Below are positions 245-20,238 of a stretch of DNA of 45,947 bases, in pieces. The notes under the pieces are model-generated. The model was not told where the DNA came from and did no database searches. It worked only from the letters and a program-made list of their open reading frames with translations. The number at the start of each line of letters is the position of its first letter. Position 1 is the stretch's first letter. Location of the stretch: positions 1 to 45,947 of the forward strand of contig JAJDBK010000021.1 of NCBI GenBank assembly GCA_029261405.1, written 5' to 3'. The DNA is from Nitrospinaceae bacterium. GTDB lineage: Bacteria; Nitrospinota_A; UBA7883; JAJDBK01. The translations under genes and the position numbers were made by a program.

Positions 245-448
245 CTATCTATCAGGCAAGAAAAGATCGAGATGAGTGGTCGATGCCACAGCGGCGATCA
301 TGAATAGCATGATAGGAACGAACGCCACCACCAGGTTGCGGGTCTGGCCACCCGATGTGTCCAGATGTTTCTTCATCTCATCGGCTGTGGGTTCCGTCGG
401 TATAATCAGCGCCGCAGTTATTTCCCCCCAGGTTGACGATTCCACCAT
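245..448 (-). CDS. Small single-pass membrane protein, hypothetical
   Basis: A 67-residue ORF. Its ATG (448-446) overlaps the TAA of the upstream glycosyltransferase as TAATG, an arrangement typical of translational re-initiation. The product has a polar N-terminal half containing IIPTEPTADEMKKHL, then one hydrophobic segment at about residues 41-58, then a short polar tail ending LFLPDR. I do not recognise a family. No strong ribosome-binding site is visible, so coupling to the upstream gene would be needed. It would be the last gene of the long minus-strand operon. It could be a chance ORF, but the stop/start overlap and the membrane segment argue for a real gene. Confidence 0.4.
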   Translation of the reverse strand: MVESSTWGEITAALIIPTEPTADEMKKHLDTSGGQTRNLVVAFVPIMLFMIAAVASTTHLDLFLPDR

Positions 449-1425
449 TATACGCGATGTGACCGCGCCACAGCGAAGTATAGTACCCCGGATCCTATCA
501 CCAGAGCGCGTAGCGCCAGAAAAAACGGAGAGAGCAGACCAATGGTAAAATCGCGTTTTATAGCAAACAGCGCGAAAGGGACCGAAAAGAAGAGGAAGGC
601 ACAAAACGATAATAACGCCAACAGAAATAGTGGCGGGAAAACGATTCCGGTCATCATCAACGCCATCGCCCCGAAGAGGGTCGCCACCTGCGCTTTTAGG
701 GTCTGCGGTGTATAGGTGTCTTTCACCATTTTTTCCGGGTACTTTTTGTAGACCACCATGCGCCAGTATCCCCGCCAGAATTTTACTGAAGCGTATCGCG
801 CGACACTGTCGGGATGTCCCAGGTGTTTGACCTTCGCCAATGGATTGAAGACCAGCCTGTGACCAGCGGCGGCCAGCCGGTATGAAAGGTCGGTGTCTTC
901 ATTGTTGGCTACCGGAAAAGATTCGTCAAAGCCACCTGCTTCGATAAAAATATCGCGCCTGAAAGTGGCTGAGTAGGTATCGATCATGTCGATGGTCTCG
1001 GCCCGTTTCAGTAGCTCGAACCGCTCTTCGAACTCAACCTGACAGAACCTTGCTGTCAGGGAGTTTTGCAAAGTCCCGCTATAGACACCCTTGGCGGCGG
1101 AGACCCTCGCATCAGCAAGAAAAGGCGCAACGCTCTTCTCCACCCAGTCGGGCGCCGGAACGCAATCCGCGTCGGTAAAAAGAATGACGCCCCCGGTCGC
1201 CTCATTCGCCCCACGGTTTCTCGCCGAAGCGGGACCGGCGTTCTCCTGCCAGATATATCGCACCGGGTAAGACTTTATTATCGCGTCGCTCCCGTCGGTT
1301 GAGCCATCGTCCACAACTATAATCTCATAATCGTCAGTCGCAAACGTCTGGTCAATCAACGCTGTGAGACAGCGGGCGATACTGCCTTCGGAGTTGTATG
1401 CCGGAATGACTACGCTTGCTTTCAC
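448..1425 (-). CDS. Family 2 glycosyltransferase with C-terminal membrane segments
   Basis: 325 residues, GTG start. The N-terminal GT-A fold opens with SVVIPAYNSEGSI. It contains the nucleotide-sugar motif VVDDGSTDGS (about residues 37-46) and the metal-binding TDADC (about 84-88), then an acceptor-region ED motif in NNEDTDLSYRL. The last 80 residues are strongly hydrophobic, with two or three membrane spans, so the enzyme should be anchored in the inner membrane and face the cytoplasm. This layout is common in glycosyltransferases that build lipid-linked glycans. It starts 5 bases after the upstream radical SAM gene, so the two are surely co-transcribed. The donor sugar and acceptor cannot be deduced from the sequence. 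Confidence 0.88.
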   Translation of the reverse strand: MKASVVIPAYNSEGSIARCLTALIDQTFATDDYEIIVVDDGSTDGSDAIIKSYPVRYIWQENAGPASARNRGANEATGGVILFTDADCVPAPDWVEKSVAPFLADARVSAAKGVYSGTLQNSLTARFCQVEFEERFELLKRAETIDMIDTYSATFRRDIFIEAGGFDESFPVANNEDTDLSYRLAAAGHRLVFNPLAKVKHLGHPDSVARYASVKFWRGYWRMVVYKKYPEKMVKDTYTPQTLKAQVATLFGAMALMMTGIVFPPLFLLALLSFCAFLFFSVPFALFAIKRDFTIGLLSPFFLALRALVIGSGVLYFAVARSHRV

Positions 1426-1430
1426 GTTTA

Positions 1431-2906
1431 TCAGCAGTTCTTTTCGGGAATGTCGGACCCTCGAAAAATATACTTTATAAAAGTCTGGGCGGAACGAAAG
1501 TTTCGTTTTATTTCCGCAGGGTTGGTCAGAGTCTGCGCAACTTTGTAGGCGATGTAGCCGGGGCGAAGATAAAACCTTCTACGGGCGTGATCGCAAAAAC
1601 TTACCAGCTCATCCGGGGTCAGTTCGTCAGATTTTATTACCGTGTTGTGAAGCCCGCCGGGAGTTATCCATTTGGAAAAATCATCAGTCGTCAACAGGCC
1701 TCGCTCCTTGTACCAATCGTACGCCTCGGTGCCGGGATAGACCATTATTGGATAGAACTGGGCGGTATCAGGATTGAGCCGTAGGGCAAGGTCCAGCGTC
1801 TGGTTCATAGTCTCCTTTGTCTCACCCGGCAGACCGACCATGAAACAACCGTGGACCAGCAATCCCGCTTTTTTTGCGTCAGCCATGAAGCGGCTCATCT
1901 TTTCGATCTTGTTCTTCTTTTTGATATTGTCGAGAAGCTGTTGGTTGCCACTCTCGAACCCGACGCACATCAGCCGGAACCCGGCTTGTTTCATCACCGT
2001 CATGGTATCCAGGTCGAGATCTGCGCGAGCGTTGACTGTGCCGGAGATTTTTATGTCCCTGCGGATTATCTCCTCGGCGATTTCGACGCATCGTTTCCGG
2101 TTGATAGTAAAAGTGTCATCCTCGAAGAAGATGGTCTTCGCTTCTGGAAACTCCGAAACTATATATTCGATCTCATCCACCACGTTTGCAACACTTCTCA
2201 CGCGCATCGTGTGATCGGTCAGCGTCTGCGGATAGACACAGAAGGTACATGGATATGGGCATCCCCTGCTTGTGGTTATGGTAACCATAGGCGGTAGGGC
2301 GTTGGCGTTGAAGTAGCGGTCTATATTCAGAAACCTTTTATATATACGACTCACGAAAGGGATAGCGTCGAGGTCCTTGATAAATTCACGCCTGCCGGTG
2401 TTTACAATTTTGCCACCGATTTTAGTAACGATACCCGGAACGCCAGATATATCATTTCCCGATTCAATCGCTGCCGCGACATCGGTAACTGTATAGTCAT
2501 ATTCACTGACCGCCGCAGCGTCGATGGATTGATCGAGGGTAAGAGACTCTTCAGGTAAAGCGGTGACATGGGTTCCGACCATCATGATAAACAGATCGGG
2601 CAATTCTGATTTGAGTCGGGCGCATACCTTCGCATCGTTATATATCGATGGAGTACTAGAATCGACCACCACCATACGCGGTCCGAACGCCTTGATCCTT
2701 TCGACTACAGCGTCAAGGTCCAGATCGTCCGCCGGCGCGTCGATGAGATCGACCCCATAACCATTATCGTCGGCCACGGCGGTGGCGTAGGCTAACCACA
2801 TGGGGTAATAGAGCGTCCCGCTTTTTGTAACCGCCGGACTACGTTGCGGTCGTGAGAAATCCTTCATAAAGGGAGGGTTCAAGAAGGTGATATTGAGTCG
2901 GGGCAT
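1431..2906 (-). CDS. B12-binding-type radical SAM protein (BchE/HpnJ-like architecture)
   Basis: 491 residues. Residues 1-150 form a Rossmann-like cobalamin-binding-type domain, including VGTHVTALPEE near 110-120. The classical DxHxxG cobalamin ligand motif is not evident. The radical SAM cluster motif is CPYPCTFC, with Cys216, Cys220 and Cys223 binding the 4Fe-4S cluster. It is followed by a GFESGNQ-type SAM-binding strand near 320 and MVGLPGET. A C-terminal helical region follows. Family members methylate or rearrange unactivated carbons in lipids, pigments and antibiotics. Its ATG directly follows the TAG of the DUF362 gene, with AGGA about 9 bases upstream. The substrate is unknown; an operon-linked lipid or sugar is my inference. 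Confidence 0.9.
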   Translation of the reverse strand: MPRLNITFLNPPFMKDFSRPQRSPAVTKSGTLYYPMWLAYATAVADDNGYGVDLIDAPADDLDLDAVVERIKAFGPRMVVVDSSTPSIYNDAKVCARLKSELPDLFIMMVGTHVTALPEESLTLDQSIDAAAVSEYDYTVTDVAAAIESGNDISGVPGIVTKIGGKIVNTGRREFIKDLDAIPFVSRIYKRFLNIDRYFNANALPPMVTITTSRGCPYPCTFCVYPQTLTDHTMRVRSVANVVDEIEYIVSEFPEAKTIFFEDDTFTINRKRCVEIAEEIIRRDIKISGTVNARADLDLDTMTVMKQAGFRLMCVGFESGNQQLLDNIKKKNKIEKMSRFMADAKKAGLLVHGCFMVGLPGETKETMNQTLDLALRLNPDTAQFYPIMVYPGTEAYDWYKERGLLTTDDFSKWITPGGLHNTVIKSDELTPDELVSFCDHARRRFYLRPGYIAYKVAQTLTNPAEIKRNFRSAQTFIKYIFRGSDIPEKNC

Positions 2907-4148
2907 CTATACAATCCTTTTTACTACGTCGTCGTATTGGCGCAACTGCTCGTCTAAAAATCCCCGAACGCCGTGGAACTCTACAGCGTCGTAAGGGCAG
3001 ACACAATAACAGTAGAGACAGTCGATACAGTTTTTGTCGTTTTCGTTCAGACCCTCCGGGAGTTTCACACCCGTGGGGCAATATTCGATACATGGTTTTC
3101 TTTCGCAGGTTTCACACTTTTTCAAGTCTACGCTTAACTTATCGAGCCGCATCTCCTCATCGATAAATACATCCTGTCGCAAACCTGTAGCGTAGAGAAG
3201 GGCGCCTATCAGCTTTGTGTTGCAGACCATGTTAAAGAAGGCGGTATTCCTTACGGCCAGAAAATACTTCTGTCGTTTCGGGGAGTGGATGAATGTCGCC
3301 AACGGACCGGCTACTGGTGGCGCGAAATGGAACTTTTCGTCGAAGTTATAAGCATCGGCGAACGCTGTCATATCTTCAGTGACGAGACCTTGTCGCTTCG
3401 CTTCCAGCAGCGTCCTGAATTCAGCTTCGTCAAAACCGGCAAATCGCGCCATCATAAGATCGATGAGGTATGGGCTGTCGCCAATGAATACTCTGCCGGT
3501 TTTAAGGGGAGTTCCCCTGGTGGGGCCGAGACCTTCCATCGCAATGACGCCGTCCACTATATGAATATCAGGTTTCACCACCTTGTTGATGTTCAGGATG
3601 TTGGCGGCGAGTTTCAGGTGTGTCTTTTTTTTATTTTCCTGACCCACGAGGGTACCCATCAGGTTCTTCAGACAGACACTCATGCCGATCTCGAAATGGG
3701 TTTTTAACTTCGGCATGTTTATCAGGAAGTCGGAGTCGATGACATCCTTGGCAACACTTGCTGTAACACCATCCTCAAAAGTTATCGGGAATTTTTCAGA
3801 TTGGTTAAGGTCTTTTACCACCGCGCCGTAATGTTTAGCCAACTGATCGAACCTGAGTCGGGAGATGACGTCTATTTTGTTCCGGTAATAACCGCTGTTG
3901 GTCCCTTCGGCGACTGTTATATCGGTGTAATCATTATCCTTTAGATACTCCAGAACAGCCGCCACCAGACGCAGGTCTGTGGTGTTGCCGGTGAGCGCGT
4001 TCATGTTGGCGTTCATATTCGGCTTGATCACCACCTTTACATTTTTGTCGGAAGGGAAGAGGTCGCCATACTTTTCGTCGAGAGTGGTTTTTACGCCTGT
4101 TTTTATTTCGGTAACCGTCCCGGCTTTAATCGAATCAAATCGAATCAT
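2907..4148 (-). CDS. DUF362 protein with C-terminal 4Fe-4S ferredoxin domain
   Basis: 413 residues. The first 310 residues match the DUF362 pattern: KVVIKPNMN near 41-49, a conserved VAEGTNSG near 98-105, and LINMPKLKTH near 145-154 leading to CLKNLMG. The C-terminal 80 residues carry two cysteine clusters, CETCERKPCIEYCP and CIDCLYCYCVCP, arranged as a two-cluster ferredoxin. DUF362 has no agreed reaction; fused ferredoxins point to redox or electron transfer. Its start overlaps the GT9 stop by 4 bases (ATGA) and it abuts the next radical SAM gene, so it may supply electrons to the three radical SAM enzymes of this operon. That role is inference. Confidence 0.88.
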   Translation of the reverse strand: MIRFDSIKAGTVTEIKTGVKTTLDEKYGDLFPSDKNVKVVIKPNMNANMNALTGNTTDLRLVAAVLEYLKDNDYTDITVAEGTNSGYYRNKIDVISRLRFDQLAKHYGAVVKDLNQSEKFPITFEDGVTASVAKDVIDSDFLINMPKLKTHFEIGMSVCLKNLMGTLVGQENKKKTHLKLAANILNINKVVKPDIHIVDGVIAMEGLGPTRGTPLKTGRVFIGDSPYLIDLMMARFAGFDEAEFRTLLEAKRQGLVTEDMTAFADAYNFDEKFHFAPPVAGPLATFIHSPKRQKYFLAVRNTAFFNMVCNTKLIGALLYATGLRQDVFIDEEMRLDKLSVDLKKCETCERKPCIEYCPTGVKLPEGLNENDKNCIDCLYCYCVCPYDAVEFHGVRGFLDEQLRQYDDVVKRIV

Positions 4149-5290
4149 GGCTCCGACTTCTCAAGCAGATCAAGAACAGTATTGTAAACTTCTTCCATTG
4201 TAATATCCTCCATACACGCTTGTAGCCTTTCGTGCGAGCAAGAGCTTTCATCGCAGGCGGATCGGCACTCAAAATCTTTTTCAATAACTTTCGACCCGGT
4301 TCCGTAAGGGGCCGTCTCGACACTTTTGGACGGACCGAAAAGGGCCGCAACCGGCGTTCCCATGGCGCGGGCTATATGCATCGGCGCAGAGTCGTTGCAG
4401 ACCAGCAGGGACGATTTCCCAAGAACCAGAGCCAGTTCCCGCAGATTTACCCTGCCAGTAAGGTTTACGCACTCAAACCCAAGGTCGGCCACTATCTCGT
4501 CCGTCACTTCTTTTTCGGAACCATGCCCAAGCAGGGCCAAGGTAACTTTAGTCTCCTCATATATTTTATTACATAACCGGGCGTAGCGCCCAACATGCCA
4601 CATCTTCAGCTTTAATCGGGAACCGGGATGCACACAGATAAATTTTTCCGTAATGCGGTTTTCCGCTAGCAGTTTATCGACGCCATCAATTTCATTTTTT
4701 GTGAATTCCAGGGGAAACTCCGGCTCACCAATATCGCATCCGATATGCCTTGCGATATCGAGATGATATTCGACTTTATGTTTCAGTTTTTCGTAAGGAA
4801 CGACATCTGTAAGCAGGTACGCTCCGCCGCCAACAGCGTAAGAAACTTTATGTTTCGCTTTGACCGGCAATAAAAGTCCCATGATCTCCCGGATATCAGC
4901 TCTCGCTTCGATAACGAGATCGAATTTTTCTTTTCTTATGCGCCGTAAATAATCTATGTAATCCGATTTCGGAGATGGGTGAAACCAGAACGGGTCGTAG
5001 GTGATTACTCTATCCACATACCGGTTGTTCTCGAAAAGGGGCGCCGCGCTTTTGGTGGTAAGGAACGTTATCGACGAATTCGGGAATCGTTCTTTTAACG
5101 GTTTTAACATCGGCAGGGTCATCACCACATCACCAATATAAACAGTGCGGATTAGCAGGATGCTTTTGACCGATTCAGGCTGTATCGGTCCGGTTCTTTT
5201 TAATATGCAGGCCGGATAGAAAAGAACCTTGCCGATGGTGTCTGCAATTTTTGTTGCGAGCAGTTTTTTTTTATTTACGATCTTGTACAA
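4145..5290 (-). CDS. Glycosyltransferase family 9 (heptosyltransferase-like)
   Basis: 381 residues, TTG start with GGTGA a few bases upstream; no ATG is available before the conserved core. The core begins ILLIRTVYIGDVVMTLPML, the classic GT9 opening in which a residue of the GD motif acts on the acceptor. The C-terminal domain has the HPGSRLKLKMW donor-site motif and CNDSAPMHIARAMGTPVAALFGPS, which binds ADP-heptose in WaaC/WaaF. GT9 enzymes add heptose or other sugars to lipid A core. It overlaps the alpha/beta hydrolase by 16 bases. Whether it acts on LPS core or on the special glycan of this locus is not determinable here. Confidence 0.9.
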   Translation of the reverse strand: MYKIVNKKKLLATKIADTIGKVLFYPACILKRTGPIQPESVKSILLIRTVYIGDVVMTLPMLKPLKERFPNSSITFLTTKSAAPLFENNRYVDRVITYDPFWFHPSPKSDYIDYLRRIRKEKFDLVIEARADIREIMGLLLPVKAKHKVSYAVGGGAYLLTDVVPYEKLKHKVEYHLDIARHIGCDIGEPEFPLEFTKNEIDGVDKLLAENRITEKFICVHPGSRLKLKMWHVGRYARLCNKIYEETKVTLALLGHGSEKEVTDEIVADLGFECVNLTGRVNLRELALVLGKSSLLVCNDSAPMHIARAMGTPVAALFGPSKSVETAPYGTGSKVIEKDFECRSACDESSCSHERLQACMEDITMEEVYNTVLDLLEKSEP

Positions 5291-6150
5291 GGATCACCAG
5301 CGCATTTGAGAAAATGTTTTAGTATCGTAGCCTTGTTGTCGTCTCCCGGAGAAATCCAGTGGTATTCGTCGATTTTGCTCTCATCGAAAAGCATATCTGA
5401 TTTGTTGTCGTTTAATTGCGTGCAGGAGGCTTTGCCTTTGGTGGCCAGGTTCACAAGTTCGATAGCGTGTCCGACGAATCGCCCCTGCACATGATCCTCC
5501 ACTCCCTGATACCTGTAGTAGGCGCACTTTATATCGCCGATGGAACCTGTCGGCTCCCGCTCGCTCCAGAATGTTTCATCGCTACAGGGGTGTTCGGTGA
5601 AGGGTGGGTGGGTATCGTTCCTCGTAATCACAAACCTGTTTGACGGGCCTTCCCAATCGAAGAGGTATGTTAGATCGTCCGAACAGTAGCTGGCCAGAAA
5701 TCCCACAGCGATAGTCACTCCGATGGAGAAAGAAAAAAGCCCGATTTTCTTTTCGTCCACCTCCTCCCGTTCGGAAAAGAAACGGACAACATCGGCAAGC
5801 TCCTGTTGGTGAATGGCGCCACACCGGTTTTCAACTCCATCGCTACCGCCCCTGCCGGAAGGATCGTATGTCATAACGGCAAAACCCATCCCCGCAACTT
5901 CCGGCGCGGTCAGTTCACCACGTTTGTCGTATCGGGTTCCTTCCGTTATTCCGCCAGGAATAAAGATGACTCCCGGTAATGGTGATGTGTCAATACCGTT
6001 AGTGGGCGTTGTCAGATGGGCTTTTAGTCTGTCGCCGTTAAACGAAGTTACGCTAAACTCCTCAGTTTTTACTTGCGCCAGTTTTTTGCCCAAAGTTTTT
6101 TCGGTGAAGTATTTGTTTCTCCGGAAAATAATCTGGTCGAGCGGTTTCAT
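5275..6150 (-). CDS. Alpha/beta hydrolase (S9/dienelactone hydrolase-like)
   Basis: 291 residues, ATG start overlapping the acyltransferase stop as ATGA. The order is beta-strand VIFIPGG near 61-67 (oxyanion region), YDPSGRGGS near 95-103, and the nucleophile elbow SFSIG (Ser142). A possible acid in LFDWEG and a late His complete the expected triad. The nucleophile elbow lacks the first Gly of GxSxG, having Ser instead. Similar hydrolases occur in exopolysaccharide and exosortase loci. No signal peptide is visible, so it is probably cytoplasmic. The substrate could be an acyl ester of the lipid or sugar being built; this is inference. Confidence 0.8.
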   Translation of the reverse strand: MKPLDQIIFRRNKYFTEKTLGKKLAQVKTEEFSVTSFNGDRLKAHLTTPTNGIDTSPLPGVIFIPGGITEGTRYDKRGELTAPEVAGMGFAVMTYDPSGRGGSDGVENRCGAIHQQELADVVRFFSEREEVDEKKIGLFSFSIGVTIAVGFLASYCSDDLTYLFDWEGPSNRFVITRNDTHPPFTEHPCSDETFWSEREPTGSIGDIKCAYYRYQGVEDHVQGRFVGHAIELVNLATKGKASCTQLNDNKSDMLFDESKIDEYHWISPGDDNKATILKHFLKCAGDPCTRS

Positions 6151-7067
6151 ACTTTTCCGGTGAGCTTGTCGAAACGATCAAGAAAATGCCACCAGGCGGG
6201 ATTTTGTTCGATCCGCGTTTCTAGCCTTTTAACAAATTTTTCTGTAACCCCTGGTATGGAGATTTTTTCAACGGCGCCGTCTGTTATCGGTGGTTCAATG
6301 ATGATGCGGTACAGTCTCTCTTTTCCCGGCGTTATGAACAGAGGTAGCAGTGGCGCTCCGGTCTTTCCAGAAAGAGTAGCGGGGCCGAGCGGGAACTTGT
6401 ACGGTTTTTCACAAAGAGGGATGGTGACGCTTTTTCCGATGACCTTATTTGTTCCGGCTCCGTCACCTGTAATCATTATCACACCATTATCTTTCAGCCA
6501 GGCGAAGACCGGGCGCAGAAACGATTCGGCGTTCACCACATCAGCGGGCATCATGTTTTCGTATCGAATCCGTTGTCGGAAAGCGACGTTTCTGCCAATC
6601 CAGCTTAACCCTTCGTCCGACGGGTATCCAACCTGCCGCATTTTGTACCCGATTCGCGCAAGAGCGACAAGGGGCAGATGGACCGGGCCGATATGGCCGT
6701 GAACAAGGATCGCGCCTCTCCCTTTGGCAAGAGCGAAATCGAGATGTTCAAGTCCTTTGATCTCTATAAACTTCTCAACTTCTTTGGCGTGAAAATTTGG
6801 AAAAATAAAGATCATTAATCTGTCTGTATAGTAGTTTCTGAAAAACTTTAGCGTGGCGGGTTGTGGATCGGGGCCGTTTCCGTTTATCAAGGCAATGTTT
6901 TGCGCCAGCCTCTTCCGGCCACCTTTTGACACGGCGTGATGTATATCGCCAAGATAACCGAGAGTCGAAATCGCCCATCCTACAGGTAATAAAAGGACAA
7001 ACCAGCGGAGCGGGTACCAGACAACAAGGCGCATGATATCGCGTAGAAAAGACTCTTTTGTCTTCAC
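6147..7067 (-). CDS. LpxL/HtrB-like acyltransferase with altered active site
   Basis: 306 residues, GTG start with AAAGG about 8 bases upstream; ATG at 7034 is a possible alternative. The N-terminal hydrophobic anchor (about residues 13-40), the KGRGAILVHGHIG strand and the later GDGAGT, PLCEKP and FITPGKERLYR segments match the lipid A late-acyltransferase family (LABLAT). The catalytic box HX4(D/E) reads HIGPVH here (His125 to His130), so the acidic partner is missing. It sits between the alpha/beta hydrolase and a radical SAM gene, with 4-base and 1-base junctions. It probably transfers, or once transferred, a fatty acyl chain onto a membrane lipid on the inner membrane's cytoplasmic face. 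Confidence 0.8.
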   Translation of the reverse strand: MKTKESFLRDIMRLVVWYPLRWFVLLLPVGWAISTLGYLGDIHHAVSKGGRKRLAQNIALINGNGPDPQPATLKFFRNYYTDRLMIFIFPNFHAKEVEKFIEIKGLEHLDFALAKGRGAILVHGHIGPVHLPLVALARIGYKMRQVGYPSDEGLSWIGRNVAFRQRIRYENMMPADVVNAESFLRPVFAWLKDNGVIMITGDGAGTNKVIGKSVTIPLCEKPYKFPLGPATLSGKTGAPLLPLFITPGKERLYRIIIEPPITDGAVEKISIPGVTEKFVKRLETRIEQNPAWWHFLDRFDKLTGKV

Positions 7068-7068
7068 C

Positions 7069-8340
7069 CTATTTACCTTTTAACGCCAGCAGAAGATTGA
7101 ACAGCTTTTCTATATATTTTGTTTTCCGGTTCGTATAATAGACAGGTTTCAAAAGATCGGCGCCTTCTTCGATCAAACCTTCATCAAGGGCGATCTTGTA
7201 CATCTTCGTGTGCGGTTCGACCCGGATAGAGTTAAACTCGAAATGAATTTCCCCCCCAAGCTCCCGTTTCGCTTTTACGCAAAAGATCATCATCGCCAGA
7301 AAATTCGATAAGGTCTGCGCGGGAGGGTTTTTGAAAAAGTTGTAGCTTATTTCTATCCCCTTAATCTCTTTTAAAATCGCATAGACCCGAAAGATATCTT
7401 CCCGCGTAAAATTCTTGCCGAGAGCTTTTAGTGTTTCATCTGAAAAACCATCGGGTGATAGCACGAAGTTATCACAACCGGCTTTCACCATGAGATCGGC
7501 GAACTCTCTTGTGAAACCTTTTTCATTAAACCATGCGGACCATTTGATTGTGACACCACGCTTTATAATCTCTTCGCAGACCGCCGTGGCGTGTTCTTTA
7601 GGAATATTAAAAACCGAATCGACGAAAGTGAAACGGTCAACTCCCCCTTCGATCAATGTTTCGATCTCATCCACCACTTTCGCCGGATCTTTTAACCTGT
7701 ATGTTTTGCCATTTAAAAATCCGTATATACAGTAGACACACTTTAACGCGCATCCACGTTTTGTTTCGATACCGATAGCGTCGCGGGTCTCCAGATATTT
7801 ATCAAGCGCAATGGCGCCACGCGCAGGGGGTGGTAACCGGTCAAGGTCAGGTGGTGTGCCAGGGCCGGTAAACAGTACGGCGCCCTCTTTCCGATAGTAG
7901 ACCGAAGGTATCGAGTCAGGCGAGTCGAGCGACTTTAAAAGTTTGCCCAGCGTGGTCTCCCCCTCCAGATAGAGTCCATAATCTATCCGTGGCTCTTCGG
8001 TCATTATCTGCTCGGCGTACATCGAAAAACCGGCGCCACCGACCGCTATCGGAGTAGACGAAACCTGCTTTACCGCCGTTATAAACTCAGCTAAAAACCT
8101 GTAATAATAGACAACTTTTCGTTTGTTGGTGGAGTCGATATTCCGCAGTGAAAACCCTACGAAGTCAGGCGCGAAACTTTCGATTATCTCCTTGAGTTCA
8201 TCAAGCGGATTTGCAGAAACGTTACTATCAAACACCTTAACCTCGTGATCGCCAAGACCACTTGCGACACACGCAAGACCTATGGGGTAGACTACAGGTT
8301 CGTTCCCGCCAAGGTAACACTGGACCAGAAGAACTTTCAT
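7069..8340 (-). CDS. B12-binding-type radical SAM protein
   Basis: 423 residues, ATG start overlapping the next upstream gene by 4 bases. The N-terminal 130 residues form a short cobalamin-binding-type domain with PIAVGGAGFS near 97-106 and GEGE-like LEGETT near 125-130. The cluster motif is CALKCVYC (Cys197, Cys201, Cys204), followed by FTFVDSVFN. The C-terminal part is shorter than in the other two radical SAM genes of the operon. It follows the neighbouring radical SAM gene directly and may act on the same intermediate. The reaction and substrate are unknown. A methylthiotransferase is unlikely because no TRAM domain is seen. Confidence 0.88.
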   Translation of the reverse strand: MKVLLVQCYLGGNEPVVYPIGLACVASGLGDHEVKVFDSNVSANPLDELKEIIESFAPDFVGFSLRNIDSTNKRKVVYYYRFLAEFITAVKQVSSTPIAVGGAGFSMYAEQIMTEEPRIDYGLYLEGETTLGKLLKSLDSPDSIPSVYYRKEGAVLFTGPGTPPDLDRLPPPARGAIALDKYLETRDAIGIETKRGCALKCVYCIYGFLNGKTYRLKDPAKVVDEIETLIEGGVDRFTFVDSVFNIPKEHATAVCEEIIKRGVTIKWSAWFNEKGFTREFADLMVKAGCDNFVLSPDGFSDETLKALGKNFTREDIFRVYAILKEIKGIEISYNFFKNPPAQTLSNFLAMMIFCVKAKRELGGEIHFEFNSIRVEPHTKMYKIALDEGLIEEGADLLKPVYYTNRKTKYIEKLFNLLLALKGK

Positions 8341-9830
8341 CGGCCCAGAATCGCTCCTTTGAAGTGGCGATAGGCGAACTGTAATCCGAGGAAGAGGTAT
8401 TTGAAAAATGGACGCAAAACTTTACTGTTCAGGATCGTCACAACAGGCTCTGATACAAGAAAACCAAGAAGTGGTGATGGAAATTTACCACCCTTTGCGA
8501 GGGTGAACAGAAGGTTGAGGTAATTCGGCTCCCGCATGGTGTAGGTTTTGCCGTATACTTCATCCTGTTCGTTAGATAACGCTCCGCTCTCGCTCGCTTG
8601 CCTGTGCAGTTCGGTGCCTGGATATAGAATTAAAGTAAACGGCTGTAGCCTGTATGGTTTCGGGATTTGTGAAATAAACCTCAGGCTGTCGATCTTGTCC
8701 GCGTCCCGTTCGTAAGGCGCGTCGAGCAGGAAATCGTATGACGGCGGACTCATCTTATCCTTGAACCGGTTGATGATAGTCATCGCTTTCATGAGCCGTT
8801 TGTTATTCATATTTTTTCGTTTATATATCTCCTGCATCCGGGTACTGGCGCTCTCCACCCCCATCTGCACGTAAACAAGCCCTGCGTCAACCAGCGTCTC
8901 AACCTTCGCCTCCGTTACCGTGAGCGGACTTACGAGACATGAGAAAGGCAATCCGATCCGCTCCTTGTAGAGTCGGGAAAACTCAATGAGTTCATCTGTC
9001 TTCCGGGCGAAAAACTCGTCGTCGGAGATCCATATATAATCTACATACGGCATATTTAGCTTTACCGCCTCAAGTTCTCTCATCACATGCTCAACGGAAC
9101 GCCACCGCAGTTTCTTGCTCCCATACATATCGTTTAGCGTGTCGTTGATACAGTAGGTGCAACTGTAGGGACAGCCCCGGCTCGTCATGGTCTGATAGCC
9201 TGTTTTGCCGAGGTAGTCGGAGACCGTTCCCCGACGCAACGCATCCTCCATCACCTTGTGGGTTAACGGGAGAAGGGCGCCATCGAACATGACGTGGTGA
9301 TCGTCCATACTGTAGTCGGGCGCAGGATATATATCAAGGTTGCGATCAAGTTTGCCAAGCGGGTTTTTTACAATGTCGGCGCCTTTGCGAACCCAGAGGT
9401 TTGCTGTGGTGGTGTAATCATCCCCCCGTTGCATCCTGTCGGCAAGCTCCATGATCGCCTCTTCACCGTCGCCGATGCAAACCATGTCTGCGTGTTCCAT
9501 CGACTCTTCCGGTCTGATGGTCGGATGCACACCACCCCATAGCGCCGGCGCTTTTGTCTGTTCCCTGATCTTCCGGGTTATCTGGACTGCGCCATCGAAA
9601 AAATTTGTCATAAGCGTAACGCCGATCAGGTCGGAGTCTTTGCAAAGAGCTATGGCGTCGTCGAGAAGCTCTTCGTTGTACCGGTCCGCCCCCGCCACAA
9701 TGTCGTCGCCAAACGGGTCGGGCAGAAAAATTAACTGTGTAGTATGACCCCGCTCCTTGAGACAAGCGGAGAGGGTCCGCACGCCGAAGGAGGTCAGATC
9801 GGGGTATGGGGAAATAAGTGTAATTTTCAT
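8337..9830 (-). CDS. B12-binding-type radical SAM protein (BchE-like architecture)
   Basis: 497 residues, ATG start. The N-terminal cobalamin-binding-type domain spans about residues 1-135, with WGGVHPTIRPEES near 98-110 and VCIGDGEEAI near 117-126, the usual signature of the BchE-type group. The radical SAM motif is CPYSCTYC (Cys220, Cys224, Cys227). WISDDEFFA and VQMGVESAS follow and contribute to SAM binding. A basic, aromatic C-terminal tail could associate with membrane. It lies 7 bases after an LpxL-like acyltransferase and overlaps the next radical SAM gene by 4 bases. The local context suggests a lipid or isoprenoid-linked substrate, which is inference. Confidence 0.9.
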   Translation of the reverse strand: MKITLISPYPDLTSFGVRTLSACLKERGHTTQLIFLPDPFGDDIVAGADRYNEELLDDAIALCKDSDLIGVTLMTNFFDGAVQITRKIREQTKAPALWGGVHPTIRPEESMEHADMVCIGDGEEAIMELADRMQRGDDYTTTANLWVRKGADIVKNPLGKLDRNLDIYPAPDYSMDDHHVMFDGALLPLTHKVMEDALRRGTVSDYLGKTGYQTMTSRGCPYSCTYCINDTLNDMYGSKKLRWRSVEHVMRELEAVKLNMPYVDYIWISDDEFFARKTDELIEFSRLYKERIGLPFSCLVSPLTVTEAKVETLVDAGLVYVQMGVESASTRMQEIYKRKNMNNKRLMKAMTIINRFKDKMSPPSYDFLLDAPYERDADKIDSLRFISQIPKPYRLQPFTLILYPGTELHRQASESGALSNEQDEVYGKTYTMREPNYLNLLFTLAKGGKFPSPLLGFLVSEPVVTILNSKVLRPFFKYLFLGLQFAYRHFKGAILGR

Positions 9831-9837
9831 GACAGAC

Positions 9838-10782
9838 TCACTCTAATGTCTTCGCAAAGTATGGAGGGTCGCCGGTACTCTCCATGAATTCGCGGAGGGC
9901 CAGAAAGTTTATGTAGTGGCACGGGTGTTTTATTACATAATAATCGAACCTGGTGGCGAAATACTGCAGGGCGGTATGAACGTCTGAATCGTAATCACCG
10001 GTCACTTCCAGGTCGAGCGGCGGTTCGATAATCATCCGGGTTACTCCGTTATCACCGCGAACCATGAATGTCGGAAGGGCGACACAACCTGCGCGTTTGG
10101 CTATCTCCACGGCGCCGGTTGAAAAAAAAGCGGTACCACCGAGAAAATCGACCCGTAGTCGTTTTTTACCACCGCCTCCGTCAACTGCTACACCAAGAAC
10201 CTCATTTCGTTTAAGACATAAAAACGCCTTCTTCAACGAACCGAATATATTTATATGGGTAACCGGCAAGGAGAGTTCATTCTCCCACCGAAGTTCCAGC
10301 GCTCTCTTTTCCATCCGGCTGATAACTTTTCCGGGAACGATATCCTCCCACACAGTGGCCGGGGCGGAGAGCTGGGACATGGTGTATCCCCTGTAGCCGA
10401 TAGCGGGCATCACCATCTGGTTTGCGCCGAAATGCCCAAAAAGAAGAGCCACCCCTTTTCCCTTTTTTAAACCGTCGTCAATATGTTCCAGCCCTTCGCA
10501 AGTAACCGCCTCTCCTATATTTGCGGTCGAAAGTTTCGGGTAGACTAACGCTTCGAGTTCATTGAGCATAAGTATAGTGAACGATCTGCGCACGGTATCA
10601 TCACACGGCGCAAAATCGAAATTATCGCATATCCGCAAAAGCCGCTCCTTCTTCCCTCTGGCGACAGAATGGTAGAGCCATCCGAGTCCGGGGCCGACTC
10701 TCAGTAACCATCTTAACGGCGCAAGTTGCGCAATTAATCGCACCGGGTACCAGTATATCCAGAGCGCCACATCTTTTATCAT
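9838..10782 (-). CDS. LpxL/HtrB-like acyltransferase with altered active site
   Basis: 314 residues, ATG start. It shares its layout with the acyltransferase at 6147-7067: an N-terminal anchor with a W-YPVRL motif, CEGLEHIDDGLKKGKG, and the catalytic-box strand ALLFGHFGANQ. The expected HX4(D/E) reads His117 to Gln122, so the acidic residue is again absent. Later blocks include AVDGGGGKKRL, the GGTAFFSTG loop and MIIEPPLDL, all matching the lipid A acyltransferase superfamily. It starts 6 bases after the phosphodiesterase gene. The two divergent paralogues in one operon suggest that two acyl chains or two acceptors are handled. Activity cannot be assumed with the acidic residue replaced. Confidence 0.8.
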   Translation of the reverse strand: MIKDVALWIYWYPVRLIAQLAPLRWLLRVGPGLGWLYHSVARGKKERLLRICDNFDFAPCDDTVRRSFTILMLNELEALVYPKLSTANIGEAVTCEGLEHIDDGLKKGKGVALLFGHFGANQMVMPAIGYRGYTMSQLSAPATVWEDIVPGKVISRMEKRALELRWENELSLPVTHINIFGSLKKAFLCLKRNEVLGVAVDGGGGKKRLRVDFLGGTAFFSTGAVEIAKRAGCVALPTFMVRGDNGVTRMIIEPPLDLEVTGDYDSDVHTALQYFATRFDYYVIKHPCHYINFLALREFMESTGDPPYFAKTLE

Positions 10783-10788
10783 TATTGA

Positions 10789-12423
10789 CTATTCGATATA
10801 TCCGAGATCGCGCATCTGCTCTTCTATCTGCTTCGCATCTTCATCGGAAAAATCTTTACCGACCGAAGAACCGCCCCCCGCTTTTATTGTGTAGTTGGCG
10901 TCCCGGTTAACCGGATTGCTTTCGAGATGATCACGCTCCATGGCTCCCGTCAGCGGTACGCCATCGAAACTGTCGCTTACCGGCTGGCCCAACAGGTAAA
11001 GAGCGGTAGGGGTTATATCCATTATATCGGCCCGGTCAAGTTTCACGCCTCGTTTCACGCCTGGGCCTTTCATCATGAAAACACCGTAATCCTCGTGCCT
11101 GCCAGACCATTTGAGGGGAAAGAAAAGCCCCCGGTTATCGAGTTTGTAAAAACTGCACTCCGATGGGGAGATCGGGTAATAACTCTGGGCGCAATCGACG
11201 ATCAGATCTGGCGCTCCGGTGGCCTCGTCCATATCGTAAACATCCTCACTTCGATGCACTTTGGTAACCACCTTGTCGCCGGTTTCGGGATCGGTGAGTG
11301 ACAAAAGCCCTTCTATGACACCTGTGCGAACCTTCTCATACTCTTTGCTACCTTTTACAATACCGTCCCTTTGCCGCCCCGTAAAATTTACCCAGATACC
11401 TCCTCCGGCGCCTTCGCAATAAGCTGTCGTTTTCGACCAGTCAACTTCGCCGATAAACCGGTTCAGCCCCTCATCTCGATTACCGCTCGCCCCGAATATT
11501 TTTTGGCTAACCTTCCTGGCAAAACTTGCAACCTTTGATGGTTTTTCTTTTGGGCCTTCACCAGTGTGCGCGGTGTAACCGTTTTGCGCCAGCCAGTTGG
11601 AAAGCGAAAACGCCTTGTAGACCGGGCCGAAACCGTGGTCGGAGACGATCATTATCGAATCGTTCTCCTCCACCCGGTCGAGGATTTTTCCCACCGATTC
11701 GTCGAGCCGTTTATATACATCCTCGATGAAAGTTCCGTATTTGTTTCGTTCGCTCTCGGTAACCGTCTCGTTTTCCGGATCGGAAAATTTCCAGAAGTAG
11801 TGCTGGGTTCTGTCCGATTCCACATGAACATAGAAGAAAAGATCGTACTCGCCGTTGTCGAGCATGTGAGCCGCTATCTTCTCCTTCTGCTCTATCGATT
11901 CATATGTGGTCTTGACCACCCTTTGCAGGTTGTCTGGCGATGAAACCTCGAACCGGTACTTCCCGAAACGTTTTTTCAGATCAGCCGCAAGCTCTGGTGG
12001 GTAAGTGAAATCTGTCGAATCGCCCGGTGTGAACATTCCGGTAATCATGAATCCGTCAACAGGCTCCGGCGGGTATGTCACCGGGACGTTGATTACCCCG
12101 GTTTTCAATCCCCGCTCGTTTAGAATTGTCCAAAGGGCTTTGTACCGTCTGTGGCTTGAGTTGATGAAACTGAGTCTGTAATCGTCGTTGTGAATGAAAG
12201 CGTCGGTAACGCCGTGCCTGCCAGGATTGACACCGGTTATCATTGAGGTCCAGGCCACCGGGCTGAAAGCTGGTACAGTAGATTTCAGACCGGCATGTAC
12301 ACCGTCGTTCATTATGGAGGCGAGATGTTTCAGTTCCCCCTTTTTGATGAGCGGATTTATGACGTTAAAGGTAGCGCCATCAAGGCCCACGATGTATAGC
12401 TTACCCCGTTTGTTATCGCTCAA
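10789..12423 (-). CDS. Alkaline-phosphatase superfamily phosphodiesterase (type I NPP-like)
   Basis: 544 residues from the TTG at 12423, chosen because AGGAG sits 6 bases upstream; a TTG at 12429 is in frame but touches the AGGAG. Superfamily landmarks are the metal Asp in IVGLDGATF, the Thr nucleophile in VAWTSMITG, VESDRTQH with Asp and His ligands, IVSDHGF, and the late His in SGRHEDYG. It ends in an LGY tail as many relatives do. Type I phosphodiesterases hydrolyse phosphodiester or pyrophosphate bonds. No signal peptide is apparent, so it is probably cytoplasmic or needs another export route. It may cleave nucleotide-lipid or polyprenyl intermediates; the substrate is unknown. Confidence 0.85.
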   Translation of the reverse strand: MSDNKRGKLYIVGLDGATFNVINPLIKKGELKHLASIMNDGVHAGLKSTVPAFSPVAWTSMITGVNPGRHGVTDAFIHNDDYRLSFINSSHRRYKALWTILNERGLKTGVINVPVTYPPEPVDGFMITGMFTPGDSTDFTYPPELAADLKKRFGKYRFEVSSPDNLQRVVKTTYESIEQKEKIAAHMLDNGEYDLFFYVHVESDRTQHYFWKFSDPENETVTESERNKYGTFIEDVYKRLDESVGKILDRVEENDSIMIVSDHGFGPVYKAFSLSNWLAQNGYTAHTGEGPKEKPSKVASFARKVSQKIFGASGNRDEGLNRFIGEVDWSKTTAYCEGAGGGIWVNFTGRQRDGIVKGSKEYEKVRTGVIEGLLSLTDPETGDKVVTKVHRSEDVYDMDEATGAPDLIVDCAQSYYPISPSECSFYKLDNRGLFFPLKWSGRHEDYGVFMMKGPGVKRGVKLDRADIMDITPTALYLLGQPVSDSFDGVPLTGAMERDHLESNPVNRDANYTIKAGGGSSVGKDFSDEDAKQIEEQMRDLGYIE

Positions 12424-12438: not shown

Positions 12439-14286
12439 CTACAGACAGTCTTGTGGGCAATGCCCTGTGTTGGACTCCACCGGTCCACATACTCCGTCAC
12501 CGCACTTGCTACGACCCGGTGATCCTCCACCGTATTCGCGCCTGGGGCCATTGCCGCCACCTCCGCGAGGTTGCTCCATCCGGCCCCTGTAAGATCCCTG
12601 CGAATCGAGGTTCTCTACACGCTCCCGCTCGCCTCCGCTCGCCGCAATCGACCTGCCGTTTTCCAGATCAATTATGTTGATGGTGGCGGTCTCCAGCGAA
12701 GCCCTGTAGAATTTCCCCGCTTTAAAATCGAAGGTGTACTTTGAAGGAATAACACCGCCGTCAGGGAGTACCCACTCTCTTTGCAAAACTCCCAGCTTAT
12801 ACTCCATCAGCCGCTCTTCAAAGACACCCTTCTTTATTGGTGTCAGTTTGGAAAGGTAGACCCGCTCTTTATCGTTATCAAAACCGACCACCTTCGATCC
12901 GGTCGGGAACCTGCCCTTGATACGCAAGGTCTGAGCGTCGATTATTTTTTCTCCCAGGTAAAGTTCCCTCTTTTCGGAGTTTGAACGCAGATTCATCTCC
13001 CCTTTTCCACCACTTACATGACTCTCCGCCACAATTTCGAGACTGCTACCATCATAAACAAGCAGTGTCCCCTTTTTGGTGATGTGCAGAAATAACCTGT
13101 TAAGTTTTTCGTCGAAAGCCAGAACTATCTGGCCCGGACCGGTATACGATCCGGCTTCCTTGATCCTGATGGTATTGATGAAGCGACCGCTACCCGTATC
13201 GACAACCGCAAGTTCACCTAATTCCGGGAAGGCGGCGTAGAGTTTTTTGCCCCGCCGGTTATATACCATGGTGGAAACCCCGTCAGTGCGCGGTTTTAGG
13301 GAGAGCCGTATCGGGATAGAGTTTATCACCCGGTTTAACGCCGTATCGATAACGTCGATCCTTGGGGCGTAGTGGCAAAGAGCATAAATTAAGCCGCCAT
13401 CGATTATCATTTTTGATGGCCATAACCCCACACCATCGGGGCCAGCCTCCTCCGCGCGGGGAACCGCCCTTAACAGCTTGCTCCTCAGATCGTATATGTA
13501 GATAACGGAACCGCCGAGCCTGTTTCTTATGTATAGAACCGAACTGTCATTACTCAACTCCACCTGGTTAATTGCGGACCCGATCCGTATTTTCTTTGTC
13601 TGTTTCGCTCCACGATTCAGGTCGAACACAGTTATGGAACCGTCCCCTGTGTTTGTGGCGTAGAGCTTGCCGGTATCCTGATCGATGGTGAAATAGAGCG
13701 CGTCGGGGCCGTGCTTTATGGTGTGGACAGATCGCCCGCCTGCATCTTTCACATCGATTATTCCGTAGGCGGCTTCTAGATCCTGCGTGTCACCGACCTT
13801 GAACGGGCCGGGCCTGTGGCTGTAATAAAGATCGTTATATTTTATCGACCTCCCCTTTTTGGGCATGTTCATGTGAGCCGGCAGTCCGGAAACCTCCACC
13901 GCGCTCTCTTCCCTCTCGTCGATTCTGTAATAACGTCGCTCTTCGATACGGAACATGTAGAGATCACCGTTTCGTGGATCGATCAGAAGGAATCCGCCCC
14001 GAACCCCGATATCGAAAGTCATGACCAGTTCATCCCGGTCTAGATCAACAACAGCCACACTTGTCGAACGGGCGCCTGTGACGTAGAGGCGATGGTTAAC
14101 CCGGTTGATGACAGGATTGAGCGGTTTGAGGATGTTGTCGAACTGCGCTCCCGTGACAAGTTTCTGCACGTTGATGGCCTCGTAGGAAACCACATCGTCA
14201 CTACGGTCCGAAGCGTCAGAGCCGGAATAACAAAAAGAGACTATCGCAATCAGGATCACTACGGTCCTGCCAATAAAAATGTTCAT
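12439..14286 (-). CDS. Secreted YVTN/NHL-type beta-propeller with C-terminal Cys module
   Basis: 615 residues from the ATG at 14286, which overlaps the upstream stop as ATGA. Longer in-frame versions would run back through the neighbouring gene and are less likely. Residues 1-25 form a signal peptide (MNIFIGRTVVILIAIVSF). Repeated blades follow, with motifs such as SVAVVDLDRDELV, GSITVFDLNRG and LAVVDTGSGRFINTI, typical of YVTN-type propellers. After a Gly/Arg-rich linker the C-terminus is CGDGVCGPVESNTGHCPQDC, a small six-Cys module seen in secreted proteins. It should act in the periplasm or on the surface, perhaps binding the glycan made by the locus. Enzymatic activity is not indicated. 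Confidence 0.85.
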   Translation of the reverse strand: MNIFIGRTVVILIAIVSFCYSGSDASDRSDDVVSYEAINVQKLVTGAQFDNILKPLNPVINRVNHRLYVTGARSTSVAVVDLDRDELVMTFDIGVRGGFLLIDPRNGDLYMFRIEERRYYRIDEREESAVEVSGLPAHMNMPKKGRSIKYNDLYYSHRPGPFKVGDTQDLEAAYGIIDVKDAGGRSVHTIKHGPDALYFTIDQDTGKLYATNTGDGSITVFDLNRGAKQTKKIRIGSAINQVELSNDSSVLYIRNRLGGSVIYIYDLRSKLLRAVPRAEEAGPDGVGLWPSKMIIDGGLIYALCHYAPRIDVIDTALNRVINSIPIRLSLKPRTDGVSTMVYNRRGKKLYAAFPELGELAVVDTGSGRFINTIRIKEAGSYTGPGQIVLAFDEKLNRLFLHITKKGTLLVYDGSSLEIVAESHVSGGKGEMNLRSNSEKRELYLGEKIIDAQTLRIKGRFPTGSKVVGFDNDKERVYLSKLTPIKKGVFEERLMEYKLGVLQREWVLPDGGVIPSKYTFDFKAGKFYRASLETATINIIDLENGRSIAASGGERERVENLDSQGSYRGRMEQPRGGGGNGPRREYGGGSPGRSKCGDGVCGPVESNTGHCPQDCL

Positions 14287-15782
14287 TCGATGCGGTCCTT
14301 GAAACCATTCTCTTTTTTCACCATGTTGACAAGAGCGAAAGCCACTCCAAGATCGAACCATACATACTTTGAGCCGTACGACACAAGGTCGTAATCGACC
14401 AGACCGTGCATGAGCGGTTCGGCCACCACAACCGCAAACGCGCCGAGCGCCATCCGGTATGCGTATGTGTCCTTTGAGTTCATGATACAAAACGTCACTT
14501 CCCTTATCATTATCAGAATGATCGGGATCAGGATCAACAACCCGATAAGTCCCATATCAAAAAAATAGGCGGCCATAACGTTGTTGACCTCAGGAGATGA
14601 GGTCGTAGCGCCGTAACCTGCGGAGTAGAAGTTAAAGCTACCTACGCCTTCTCCGAAGAGAAAATACAATGGCTCATCGAATATCCCGTTTATCGCATGT
14701 TTGAACCATTCATATCGCAGTTCCAGCCCGGAAAGACCCTCCCCCTCCGATGTGTTTGACATGCTTGCATAGTAGCTGTTATCAGAGAAGAACAGTTCGC
14801 CCTGGTAACCGAAACCGATAAGGATACGATCAATAAATGTAGGCGTGATTATCAGAATTACAAGCAGAGCGGTTGCCCCCCCGGCAATAGCCCTGTGATA
14901 AAACACTCTTCTCAGCTCCGGCCTTAGCAGGATAAAAAACATATAACCGATGAAACATCCGACAAGACAGCCTCGTGACTTCGTGAGGATCATTCCACCG
15001 AGCATGAAAGCTATGACAAGGAAAACGGCAAACTTCTTTCCGCGGGTGGGTGTGTTAAACATTACCGCGTAGGCCATGATTATGGCTGATGAAAGAAAAC
15101 CGCCCACATGGTCAGAGCCACCTATACCTGCCGGGCGTTCCACCTGCTTTGTAATTCCCATCAGCAGACCGGTGTCCCTCGTAAAATCTATGGTCTTTGA
15201 TATCTCGTACTCTACAGTGACCATGACTAACGCAGCCGTGATTATTCCGGCGATAATCCAGATCGTTATAAGGGTGCGAAGGGCATCCTCTGTGTCGATG
15301 AGAGTTACCACCGCATAAAAAATAATTAAGTCGGTGAACAAAAAGAAGAGGCATAACGCTCCACTCTCCTGTGAGGGGGTCCAGAGTATGGTCATAAGCT
15401 CTACGGCCATGATTAGACCGACGAAGACATCTATCCGTGTCGTTCCGATCTTTATTTTCCCGGCCATATGGTAAAGAGCCAGGCCGGCGAAGGTGGCAAG
15501 CAGGGGAATCTCATAAACGTAGAACCGGGCTTCGTAAAAGTACTCCACTTTGTAGAAGATATGTACCCGCTCCAAGGTCAGCAGAAAAGCGACCATGTAT
15601 AACGAATATCTCGGATTGACCATTCCAACAACAAAAACAGAAACAATGGCAAGCGCAGGAAAAAAGAGATAAACCGGAACCAGAAGATAAGCTGACCCGA
15701 TGATGAAACCTGTCAGCCACAAAAGAAGAACCTGGTTGATCCGGGTAGTTACTGGCTGAAAAAAGGGTTGAACTGTGTGCAA
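14283..15782 (-). CDS. Wzy/WaaL-like O-antigen polymerase or ligase
   Basis: 499 residues, TTG start without a strong ribosome-binding site, so the exact start is uncertain. About 12 hydrophobic segments run along the protein. A large periplasmic loop at about residues 320-400 ends with SSPEVNNVMAAYFFDMGLIGLL, the pattern typical of the Wzy_C domain. The conserved TKSRGCLVG motif near 270 carries the Arg expected in this family. It acts in the inner membrane, either joining repeat units or ligating glycan to a lipid or protein acceptor. Location right after the Wzc-like chain-length regulator favours a polymerase for the locus. Polymerase and ligase cannot be separated by eye. Confidence 0.85.
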   Translation of the reverse strand: MHTVQPFFQPVTTRINQVLLLWLTGFIIGSAYLLVPVYLFFPALAIVSVFVVGMVNPRYSLYMVAFLLTLERVHIFYKVEYFYEARFYVYEIPLLATFAGLALYHMAGKIKIGTTRIDVFVGLIMAVELMTILWTPSQESGALCLFFLFTDLIIFYAVVTLIDTEDALRTLITIWIIAGIITAALVMVTVEYEISKTIDFTRDTGLLMGITKQVERPAGIGGSDHVGGFLSSAIIMAYAVMFNTPTRGKKFAVFLVIAFMLGGMILTKSRGCLVGCFIGYMFFILLRPELRRVFYHRAIAGGATALLVILIITPTFIDRILIGFGYQGELFFSDNSYYASMSNTSEGEGLSGLELRYEWFKHAINGIFDEPLYFLFGEGVGSFNFYSAGYGATTSSPEVNNVMAAYFFDMGLIGLLILIPIILIMIREVTFCIMNSKDTYAYRMALGAFAVVVAEPLMHGLVDYDLVSYGSKYVWFDLGVAFALVNMVKKENGFKDRIE

Positions 15783-15801
15783 GGTCGCAGGCTTCGTCAG
15801 A

Positions 15802-17925: not shown

Positions 17926-17934
17926 TTTTTCCGT

Positions 17935-20193: not shown

Positions 20194-20238
20194 ACCATTT
20201 ATTCCATTTGAACGTAATCGTGAGCTATTATTTTAATA

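Follow-up and report, generated by a model that had tools for sequence, protein, structure and literature searches.

A conserved gene core with a DUF362-ferredoxin protein and an HpnJ-like radical SAM enzyme in a probable surface-glycan locus of Nitrospinaceae

What could be made by an operon that combines glycosyltransferases with three B12-binding radical SAM proteins and a DUF362-ferredoxin fusion, and which of its genes belong together? The question is raised by ten consecutive open reading frames (ORFs) on the minus strand at positions 448-12423 of the window, that is, the whole 45,947-nucleotide stretch analyzed here (positions 1-45947 of contig C21 in the 3.27-Mb, 99.5% complete genome of a Nitrospinaceae bacterium; G-numbers denote genomes, with G000 being the window genome, L-numbers denote loci, and C-numbers denote contigs of G000). 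A preliminary description of this DNA had treated all ten genes as one pathway for a lipid-linked glycan, with the DUF362 protein as an electron donor and two LpxL-type enzymes as acyltransferases. The ORF coordinates bear out the tight arrangement, with successive genes spaced by 0-7 bases or overlapping by 4-16, and Pfam supports each of the ten family assignments, the weakest being that of the alpha/beta hydrolase (Peptidase_S15, 2.2e-6). As detailed below, the gene set is narrower than proposed in one respect and wider in another, and the operon probably belongs to a surface-glycan pathway.

A co-inherited core within the operon

Homologous loci were collected by a pattern-based scan of genome contigs with alignment of the DUF362-ferredoxin protein (hereafter, DUF362Fd), which yielded 45 named loci from Nitrospirota, Desulfobacterota, Schekmanbacteria, cable bacteria, and magnetotactic species. 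Neighbors were counted within 10 kb of DUF362Fd or to the contig end; the locus identity thresholds were chosen after viewing the data, and many contigs end early, so that the counts are probably too low. An HpnJ-like radical SAM gene was found near DUF362Fd in 35 of these loci, a glycosyltransferase family 2 (GT2) gene in 30, a glycosyltransferase family 9 (GT9) gene in 26, and a gene for a molybdopterin (Mo) enzyme of about 704 amino acids in 14. The remaining operon genes are rarer, namely, those for the LpxL-family protein a (LpxLa; 12 loci), a BzaD-like radical SAM protein (10), the radical SAM protein rSAM3 (8), and the hydrolase (7), as are the sulfate-activation genes CysD (7) and CysN (5). 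The conserved core consists of GT2 (448-1425; Glycos_transf_2, PF00535, 1.9e-36), the HpnJ-like protein (1431-2906, after a gap of 5 bases), DUF362Fd (2907-4148, gap 0; DUF362, 3.2e-41, fused to a 2[4Fe-4S] ferredoxin domain, Fer4), and the heptosyltransferase-like GT9 (4145-5290, overlapping by 4; Glyco_transf_9, PF01075, 4.3e-30), together with the Mo enzyme, which is encoded outside the window; the LpxL-like pair, the hydrolase, and the two further radical SAM genes are optional. Thus, the proposal of a single ten-gene unit holds for the core, which stays together across relatives, and is weakened for the accessory genes, which are partly scattered.

Co-occurrence of the core components extends beyond physical linkage. 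All 33 searched genomes carrying DUF362Fd encode an HpnJ-like orthologue (at least 49% identity), and the Mo enzyme is present in 28 of the 33 at E<=1e-120, including 27 at an identity of at least 58%, with the remaining one, G026, at 43%. As an independent test, we examined 150 genomes from the class of G048 (Candidatus Magnetominusculus xianensis, the genome of L094), in which DUF362Fd was found in 16, the HpnJ-like protein (at least 59%) in 16, and both in 15 (hypergeometric P=1.6e-18, with shared ancestry ignored). The two genes are no more than 260 bp apart in 12 of these genomes and are separated by about 1.2 kb in 2 others, and the exceptions are G135, with DUF362Fd and no HpnJ-like gene, and G182, with the reverse. 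At a looser cut-off of 1e-95, HpnJ-like proteins were detected in 30 genomes, including 15 of the 16 DUF362Fd carriers (P=1.4e-11). Within the phylum of the window genome, a close DUF362Fd is encoded only in G000 (100%) and G013 (64%) among 24 genomes, and a close Mo enzyme is confined to the same two genomes among 23 (63, 64%; next, 35%). The existence of a co-inherited functional unit is, in our assessment, highly likely, and the tie between glycan assembly and B12-type radical SAM enzymes drawn in the preliminary description gains from this conserved gene set.

Cultured carriers among the records include Solidesulfovibrio aerotolerans DSM 16695 and S. alcoholivorans DSM 5433. At the Solidesulfovibrio/Desulfovibrio loci L081, L083, and L100, DUF362Fd stands apart, and the HpnJ-like and Mo genes are located elsewhere in the genome; at L081 and L086, a gene with a GDS-type motif, recognized by eye, precedes DUF362Fd. 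Genes for a large PAS-like protein and a response-regulator-like protein, possibly a two-component regulator as judged by eye, precede the core at L062:4639-7912 and L094:4728-7922.

Relatives of the three unusual core enzymes

The predicted structural model of DUF362Fd is confident (predicted local distance difference test, 88.9; predicted template-modeling score, 0.91), and all 18 Foldseek matches to the PDB at E<=1e-3 are members of the LarA family (probability 1.00). A PDB profile search with the full protein retrieved mostly ferredoxins and was repeated without the ferredoxin domain. In the alignment to the malate racemase Mar2 (E 0.28), histidine, lysine, and histidine match at the right spacing, including H177 with His200, and hhalign against a LarA set that includes an L. 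plantarum protein with canonical His108, His174, Lys184, and His200 pairs N84 with His108, H151 with His174, and K161 with Lys184 (P 8e-4, probability 24%). None of H151, K161, H177, and the eight ferredoxin cysteines varies among 32 DUF362Fd sequences. The two histidines of LarA serve as its acid/base catalysts, and this 108/174 pair is incomplete in DUF362Fd, with H151 corresponding to His174 and an asparagine, N84, at the position of His108. The equivalents of the cofactor-attachment Lys184 and the nickel ligand His200, which hold the nickel-pincer nucleotide in LarA (PMC9283937), are present as K161 and H177. LarA-like proteins with a single catalytic histidine, carrying asparagine at position 174, have been solved recently (PMC12611868), and DUF362 and the LarA domain are placed in one Pfam clan (PMC11770544). 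Given the LarA fold and the retention of three of the four key residues, DUF362Fd is probably a catalyst with a built-in ferredoxin. The proposed role of a simple electron donor was accordingly dropped, because electron transfer would account for half of the function of such a protein at best.

The Radical_SAM and B12-binding domains score above the Pfam cut-offs in all three radical SAM proteins of the window, which are predicted to be cobalamin enzymes; the CxxxCxxC cluster motif of this class is present, at residue 216 in the HpnJ-like protein. The latter matches the HpnJ model TIGR03471 with 412.9 bits over 474 residues, under the curated cut-off of 577.6. All 28 members of the block that were scanned match this model and none reaches the cut-off, as follows from their best E value of 5.9e-132, compared with 1.9e-123 at 413 bits. 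Annotated HpnJ proteins are 34-35% identical to the HpnJ-like ones (35% over 480 amino acids) and fall outside the clade formed by the block members (support 92/84); because annotated HpnJ and several relatives lie on long branches, only the grouping of block members was used from this tree. From its sequence, the HpnJ-like protein is assigned to a sister family of HpnJ.

The solved structure nearest to the HpnJ-like protein is AprD4, a radical SAM aminosugar dehydratase (2.7e-21), the aligned part being confined to the radical SAM half (residues 199-434); the AprD4 model scores 100 bits on this protein versus a cut-off of 500. The product of HpnJ itself is a cyclitol, made from lipid-bound glucosamine (PMC12583986), and HpnJ is one of a small number of cobalamin radical SAM enzymes that are thought not to methylate (PMC13142503). 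A 47% identical relative is encoded on Lawsonia intracellularis plasmid NC_008012.1 (L109:9531-10994), in a cluster of glycosyltransferase, methyltransferase, SIS, HAD-IIIA, and GHMP-kinase genes that resembles a heptose pathway. By analogy with these cases, namely, the relationship to HpnJ, AprD4 as the nearest structure, and the sugar- and heptose-type neighbors in Lawsonia, the substrate of the HpnJ-like enzyme is most likely a lipid- or carrier-bound sugar.

The Mo enzyme, which recurs beside the core in relatives, is encoded in the window genome at C37:53904-55997, where a polysaccharide export gene lies immediately upstream of it. Its closest PDB structure is acetylene hydratase, matched over the full length (6.5e-116, 391 bits), with thiosulfate reductase behind at 1.1e-84. 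Residues of note in acetylene hydratase are the conserved Asp13 and Cys141. The Mo enzyme has a cysteine aligned with that of the metal-ligand region and the N-terminal iron-sulfur cysteine motif, in which the aspartate of acetylene hydratase (VCQSCDINC) is replaced by histidine (VCRVCHGGC). In G000 and G013, a gene for an EF-hand-like, Asp-rich repeat protein adjoins that of the Mo enzyme (L108:12181-12945 and L032:18846-19748).

Accessory genes and the surrounding locus

Beyond the core, the operon continues with the alpha/beta hydrolase (5275-6150, overlapping GT9 by 16 bases), LpxLa (6147-7067, overlap 4; Lip_A_acyltrans, PF03279, 2.5e-22), the BzaD/ladderane-type B12-binding radical SAM protein (7069-8340, gap 1), rSAM3 (8337-9830, overlap 4), the LpxL-family protein b (LpxLb; 9838-10782, gap 7; PF03279, 3.7e-19), and PDE1, an AlkP-superfamily type I phosphodiesterase (10789-12423, gap 6; Phosphodiest, PF01663, 5.7e-39), the ORF of which extends to 12429 if counted from the first TTG. 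The acylation step proposed in the preliminary description is called into question by a motif check. HX4(D/E) is the catalytic motif of the LpxL/LpxM lipid A acyltransferases, and its acid is absent in both LpxLa (H-IGPV-H) and LpxLb (H-FGAN-Q), as well as in the LpxL-like relatives wherever the motif is readable, so that acylation by these proteins is not safe to assume. The BzaD-like protein was assigned to neither the BzaD family (TIGR04385, 292 bits, cut-off 450) nor the ladderane family (TIGR04072, 262 bits, cut-off 360), both scores being under the cut-offs, and rSAM3, which is recognized by Pfam and has the BzaD-like gene as its neighbor in the more complete clusters, matches no curated family model above cut-off.

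In the same-order relative G013, eight of the ten genes are colinear at 49-69% identity, running rSAM3, BzaD-like, LpxLa, hydrolase, GT9, DUF362Fd, HpnJ-like, and GT2, and homologues of PDE1 (54%) and LpxLb (50%) lie upstream within the cluster. Orthologues of further window genes are found upstream in G013, namely, those for alcohol dehydrogenase, AMP ligase, WbaP-type transferase, second phosphodiesterase (PDE2), and PDE1, followed by rSAM4, LpxLb, a second rSAM3-like protein, the adenosine 5'-phosphosulfate kinase CysC, and other genes. In the window, the corresponding genes, all on the minus strand, encode the Zn-dependent alcohol dehydrogenase (19036-20193; 58% to G013, also in L096), the AlkP-type PDE2 (20287-21897; 43%), the AMP-forming acyl ligase (22093-23622; 51%, also in L096), and the WbaP-type polyprenyl-phosphate sugar-1-phosphate transferase (23691-24584; Bac_transf, 3.4e-63; about 65%). 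The operon at 448-12423 is therefore only part of the whole unit, as these four genes are conserved upstream in the G013 cluster, and further members are located on contigs C79 and C37 of the window genome. The two extra radical SAM genes of the G013 cluster have relocated counterparts in the window genome, rSAM3p and rSAM4, which sit on C79, where genes for a type II Cas9 (1076 amino acids) and Cas1 adjoin them (L051:1983-6143).

The surroundings are of glycan type, with Wzy, Wzc, WbaP, flippase, and export genes. A Wzy-like O-antigen polymerase/ligase (14283-15782; Wzy_C, 6.6e-08) and a Wzz/Wzc-like chain-length/tyrosine-kinase protein (15802-17925; AAA_31 and Wzz) are encoded on the same strand, so that the initiating transferase, the polymerase, and the chain-length gene all lie within 14283-24584, near the block. 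The ORF at positions 12439-14490 overlaps the Wzy gene, so that its true start is probably internal; its product has a Cys-rich C-terminus and weak matches to beta-propellers. The presence of CysC in G013, and of CysD and CysN in several relatives, hints at sulfation in some lineages. At L071:17312-19417, divergent CysD and CysN are encoded downstream of the core and the Mo enzyme, with similar genes at several other loci, so that sulfate activation may belong to some versions of the unit, and at L092, a protein with a P-loop motif resembling that of sulfotransferases, to which no NCBIfam model matched, is encoded after DUF362Fd.

A proposed pathway, its alternatives, and known systems

In the scheme that we propose, the operon belongs to a locus for a surface glycan, either an exopolysaccharide or a glycolipid, and its core would carry out a single unusual modification of a sugar. 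GT9 and GT2, to judge from their families, would place sugars on a carrier-bound saccharide, from which the HpnJ-like cobalamin enzyme would take a hydrogen and then rearrange the sugar, most likely into a carbocycle, as HpnJ does with hopanoid glucosamine, or else with removal of a hydroxyl, as in AprD4. DUF362Fd, possibly with a nickel-pincer-type cofactor, might move a hydride at a hydroxy or hydroxy-acid carbon, with its own 2[4Fe-4S] domain exchanging electrons meanwhile, and the cytoplasmic acetylene-hydratase-like Mo enzyme, which co-occurs with the core, could add a hydration or redox step. Lineage-specific decoration may be provided by the extra B12 radical SAM proteins, phosphodiesterases, acyl ligase, and LpxL-like proteins, and by sulfate activation in relatives. 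That the operon serves a surface-glycan pathway is the better founded part of this scheme; laid out in full, with the sugar modification by the core, we consider the odds of its being right evenly balanced. Sugar rearrangement is the leading candidate for the reaction, held tentatively, and we infer the chemistry and the product from the families concerned.

Several observations weigh against this scheme. The whole-model template-modeling (TM) scores between DUF362Fd and LarA are modest (0.28-0.38), the sequence-profile match is weak, as seen in the E value of 0.28 and the hhalign values (P 8e-4, probability 24%), and we know of no DUF362 protein that binds the nickel-pincer nucleotide. LarC is present in G000 and in G013, where a LarB-like gene (47%) adjoins it, and in 24 of 30 carriers, but also in 21 of 24 phylum genomes with or without the cluster; cofactor supply is therefore not discriminating, and LarC was set aside as an uninformative marker of nickel-pincer use. 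The scores of the HpnJ-like proteins under the HpnJ cut-off leave ring contraction to analogy only, and the nearest solved structure is that of a sugar dehydratase. Finally, G012 encodes relatives of the HpnJ-like protein (47-51%) and of GT2 (45%) and has neither DUF362Fd nor the Mo enzyme, and ten genomes with 47-53% HpnJ-like relatives have no DUF362Fd, implying that a sister HpnJ-like subfamily lives without DUF362Fd.

Among other explanations, the block might be a standard exopolysaccharide locus of the Wzx/Wzy type to which accessory genes have been added, with co-occurrence reflecting neighborhood only and no common reaction sequence. The Wzy, Wzz/Wzc, WbaP, glycosyltransferase family 4, and export genes around the block, and the variation of accessory genes among lineages, would fit this explanation, which we nevertheless hold to be rather unlikely: genomes such as those of Solidesulfovibrio retain the HpnJ-like and Mo genes at sites away from DUF362Fd, adjacency alone is insufficient to explain the genome-level co-occurrence in 33 and 27 of 33 genomes, and in the group of L057, L059, L062, L063, and L094 the core stands apart from recognized polymerase genes. 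Modification of lipid A or of the lipopolysaccharide core, with GT9 as heptosyltransferase and the LpxL-like proteins as secondary acyltransferases, is unlikely as well. It draws on sub-cut-off matches of GT9 to heptosyltransferase models, on the two Lip_A_acyltrans proteins, and on the company of the sister HpnJ-like gene on the Lawsonia plasmid, but none of the curated LpxL and heptosyltransferase models scores above cut-off on the window proteins, the acid of HX4(D/E) is missing, the LpxL genes are optional, and synthesis of a polymer is suggested by the WbaP-type transferase and Wzy/Wzc.

Synthesis of a small-molecule cofactor or a cyclic lipid by the BzaD-like/ladderane-type enzyme, with the glycosyltransferases decorating the product, appears distinctly improbable: the matches to the two models, and the presence of an AMP ligase and a hydrolase, are offset by scores below both cut-offs, by the occurrence of the BzaD-like gene in only 10 of 45 loci, and by the two surface-glycan-type glycosyltransferases in the core. 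The hopanoid pathway, in which the radical SAM protein would be HpnJ itself and the product bacteriohopanetetrol cyclitol ether, was rejected as exceedingly unlikely. HpnJ is indeed the best curated match, and an annotated HpnJ shares 35% identity over 480 amino acids, yet all 28 scanned block members score under the cut-off, annotated HpnJ groups outside their clade, none of the 24 phylum genomes, including the window genome, has a match to squalene-hopene cyclase (TIGR01507), GT2 does not resemble HpnI (E 0.19), and inspection of the loci revealed no hpnK.

Returning to the surface-glycan pathway, its boldest version would be an undescribed class of surface glycan, the sugar carbons of which are rebuilt jointly by a cobalamin radical SAM ring-rearranger, a ferredoxin-fused, nickel-pincer-type LarA-like enzyme, and an acetylene-hydratase-like Mo/W enzyme; we regard this version as doubtful. 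In the open-access literature, which was the ground searched, we found no pathway matching the core, in line with the novelty originally suggested for the gene set, and no report joining DUF362 with radical SAM enzymes, or acetylene hydratase or cobalamin radical SAM enzymes with glycan genes. The locus offers a shared, testable pathway for three little-understood enzyme groups, namely, DUF362 proteins, non-hopanoid HpnJ-type B12 radical SAM enzymes, and acetylene-hydratase-like enzymes, and if the LarA-like interpretation of DUF362Fd is true, nickel-pincer-type chemistry would extend to a ferredoxin-fused enzyme of glycan synthesis.

Several known systems resemble parts of the locus. Wzx/Wzy loci are similar in that a WbaP-type transferase, Wzy, Wzz/Wzc, and glycosyltransferases adjoin the block, but, to our knowledge, they usually lack DUF362Fd, HpnJ-like, or acetylene-hydratase-like genes. 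Acetylene hydratase is the solved structure closest to the Mo enzyme over the full length, with the aligned cysteine and the N-terminal iron-sulfur motif in common, and the Mo enzyme differs by the histidine in place of aspartate and by its location among glycan genes. AprD4 is the closest solved structure to the HpnJ-like protein, but the similarity is limited to the radical SAM half, with the model score far below cut-off. The HpnI-HpnK-HpnJ pathway (PMC12583986) likewise combines a glycosyltransferase with an HpnJ-family B12 radical SAM protein homologous over the full length, whereas no hopene cyclase was found in the phylum genomes, no HpnI or HpnK relatives were seen, and the partners in the block are DUF362Fd, GT9, and the Mo enzyme. 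The LarA superfamily, including its single-histidine enzymes (PMC12611868, PMC11770544), shares the fold and the equivalents of His174, Lys184, and His200 that are invariant in DUF362Fd; however, within the shared Pfam clan DUF362 forms a family of its own, which has served as outgroup to LarA (PMC11770544), the published single-histidine enzymes replace His174 whereas DUF362Fd has asparagine at His108, and DUF362Fd carries a 2[4Fe-4S] ferredoxin domain at its C-terminus.

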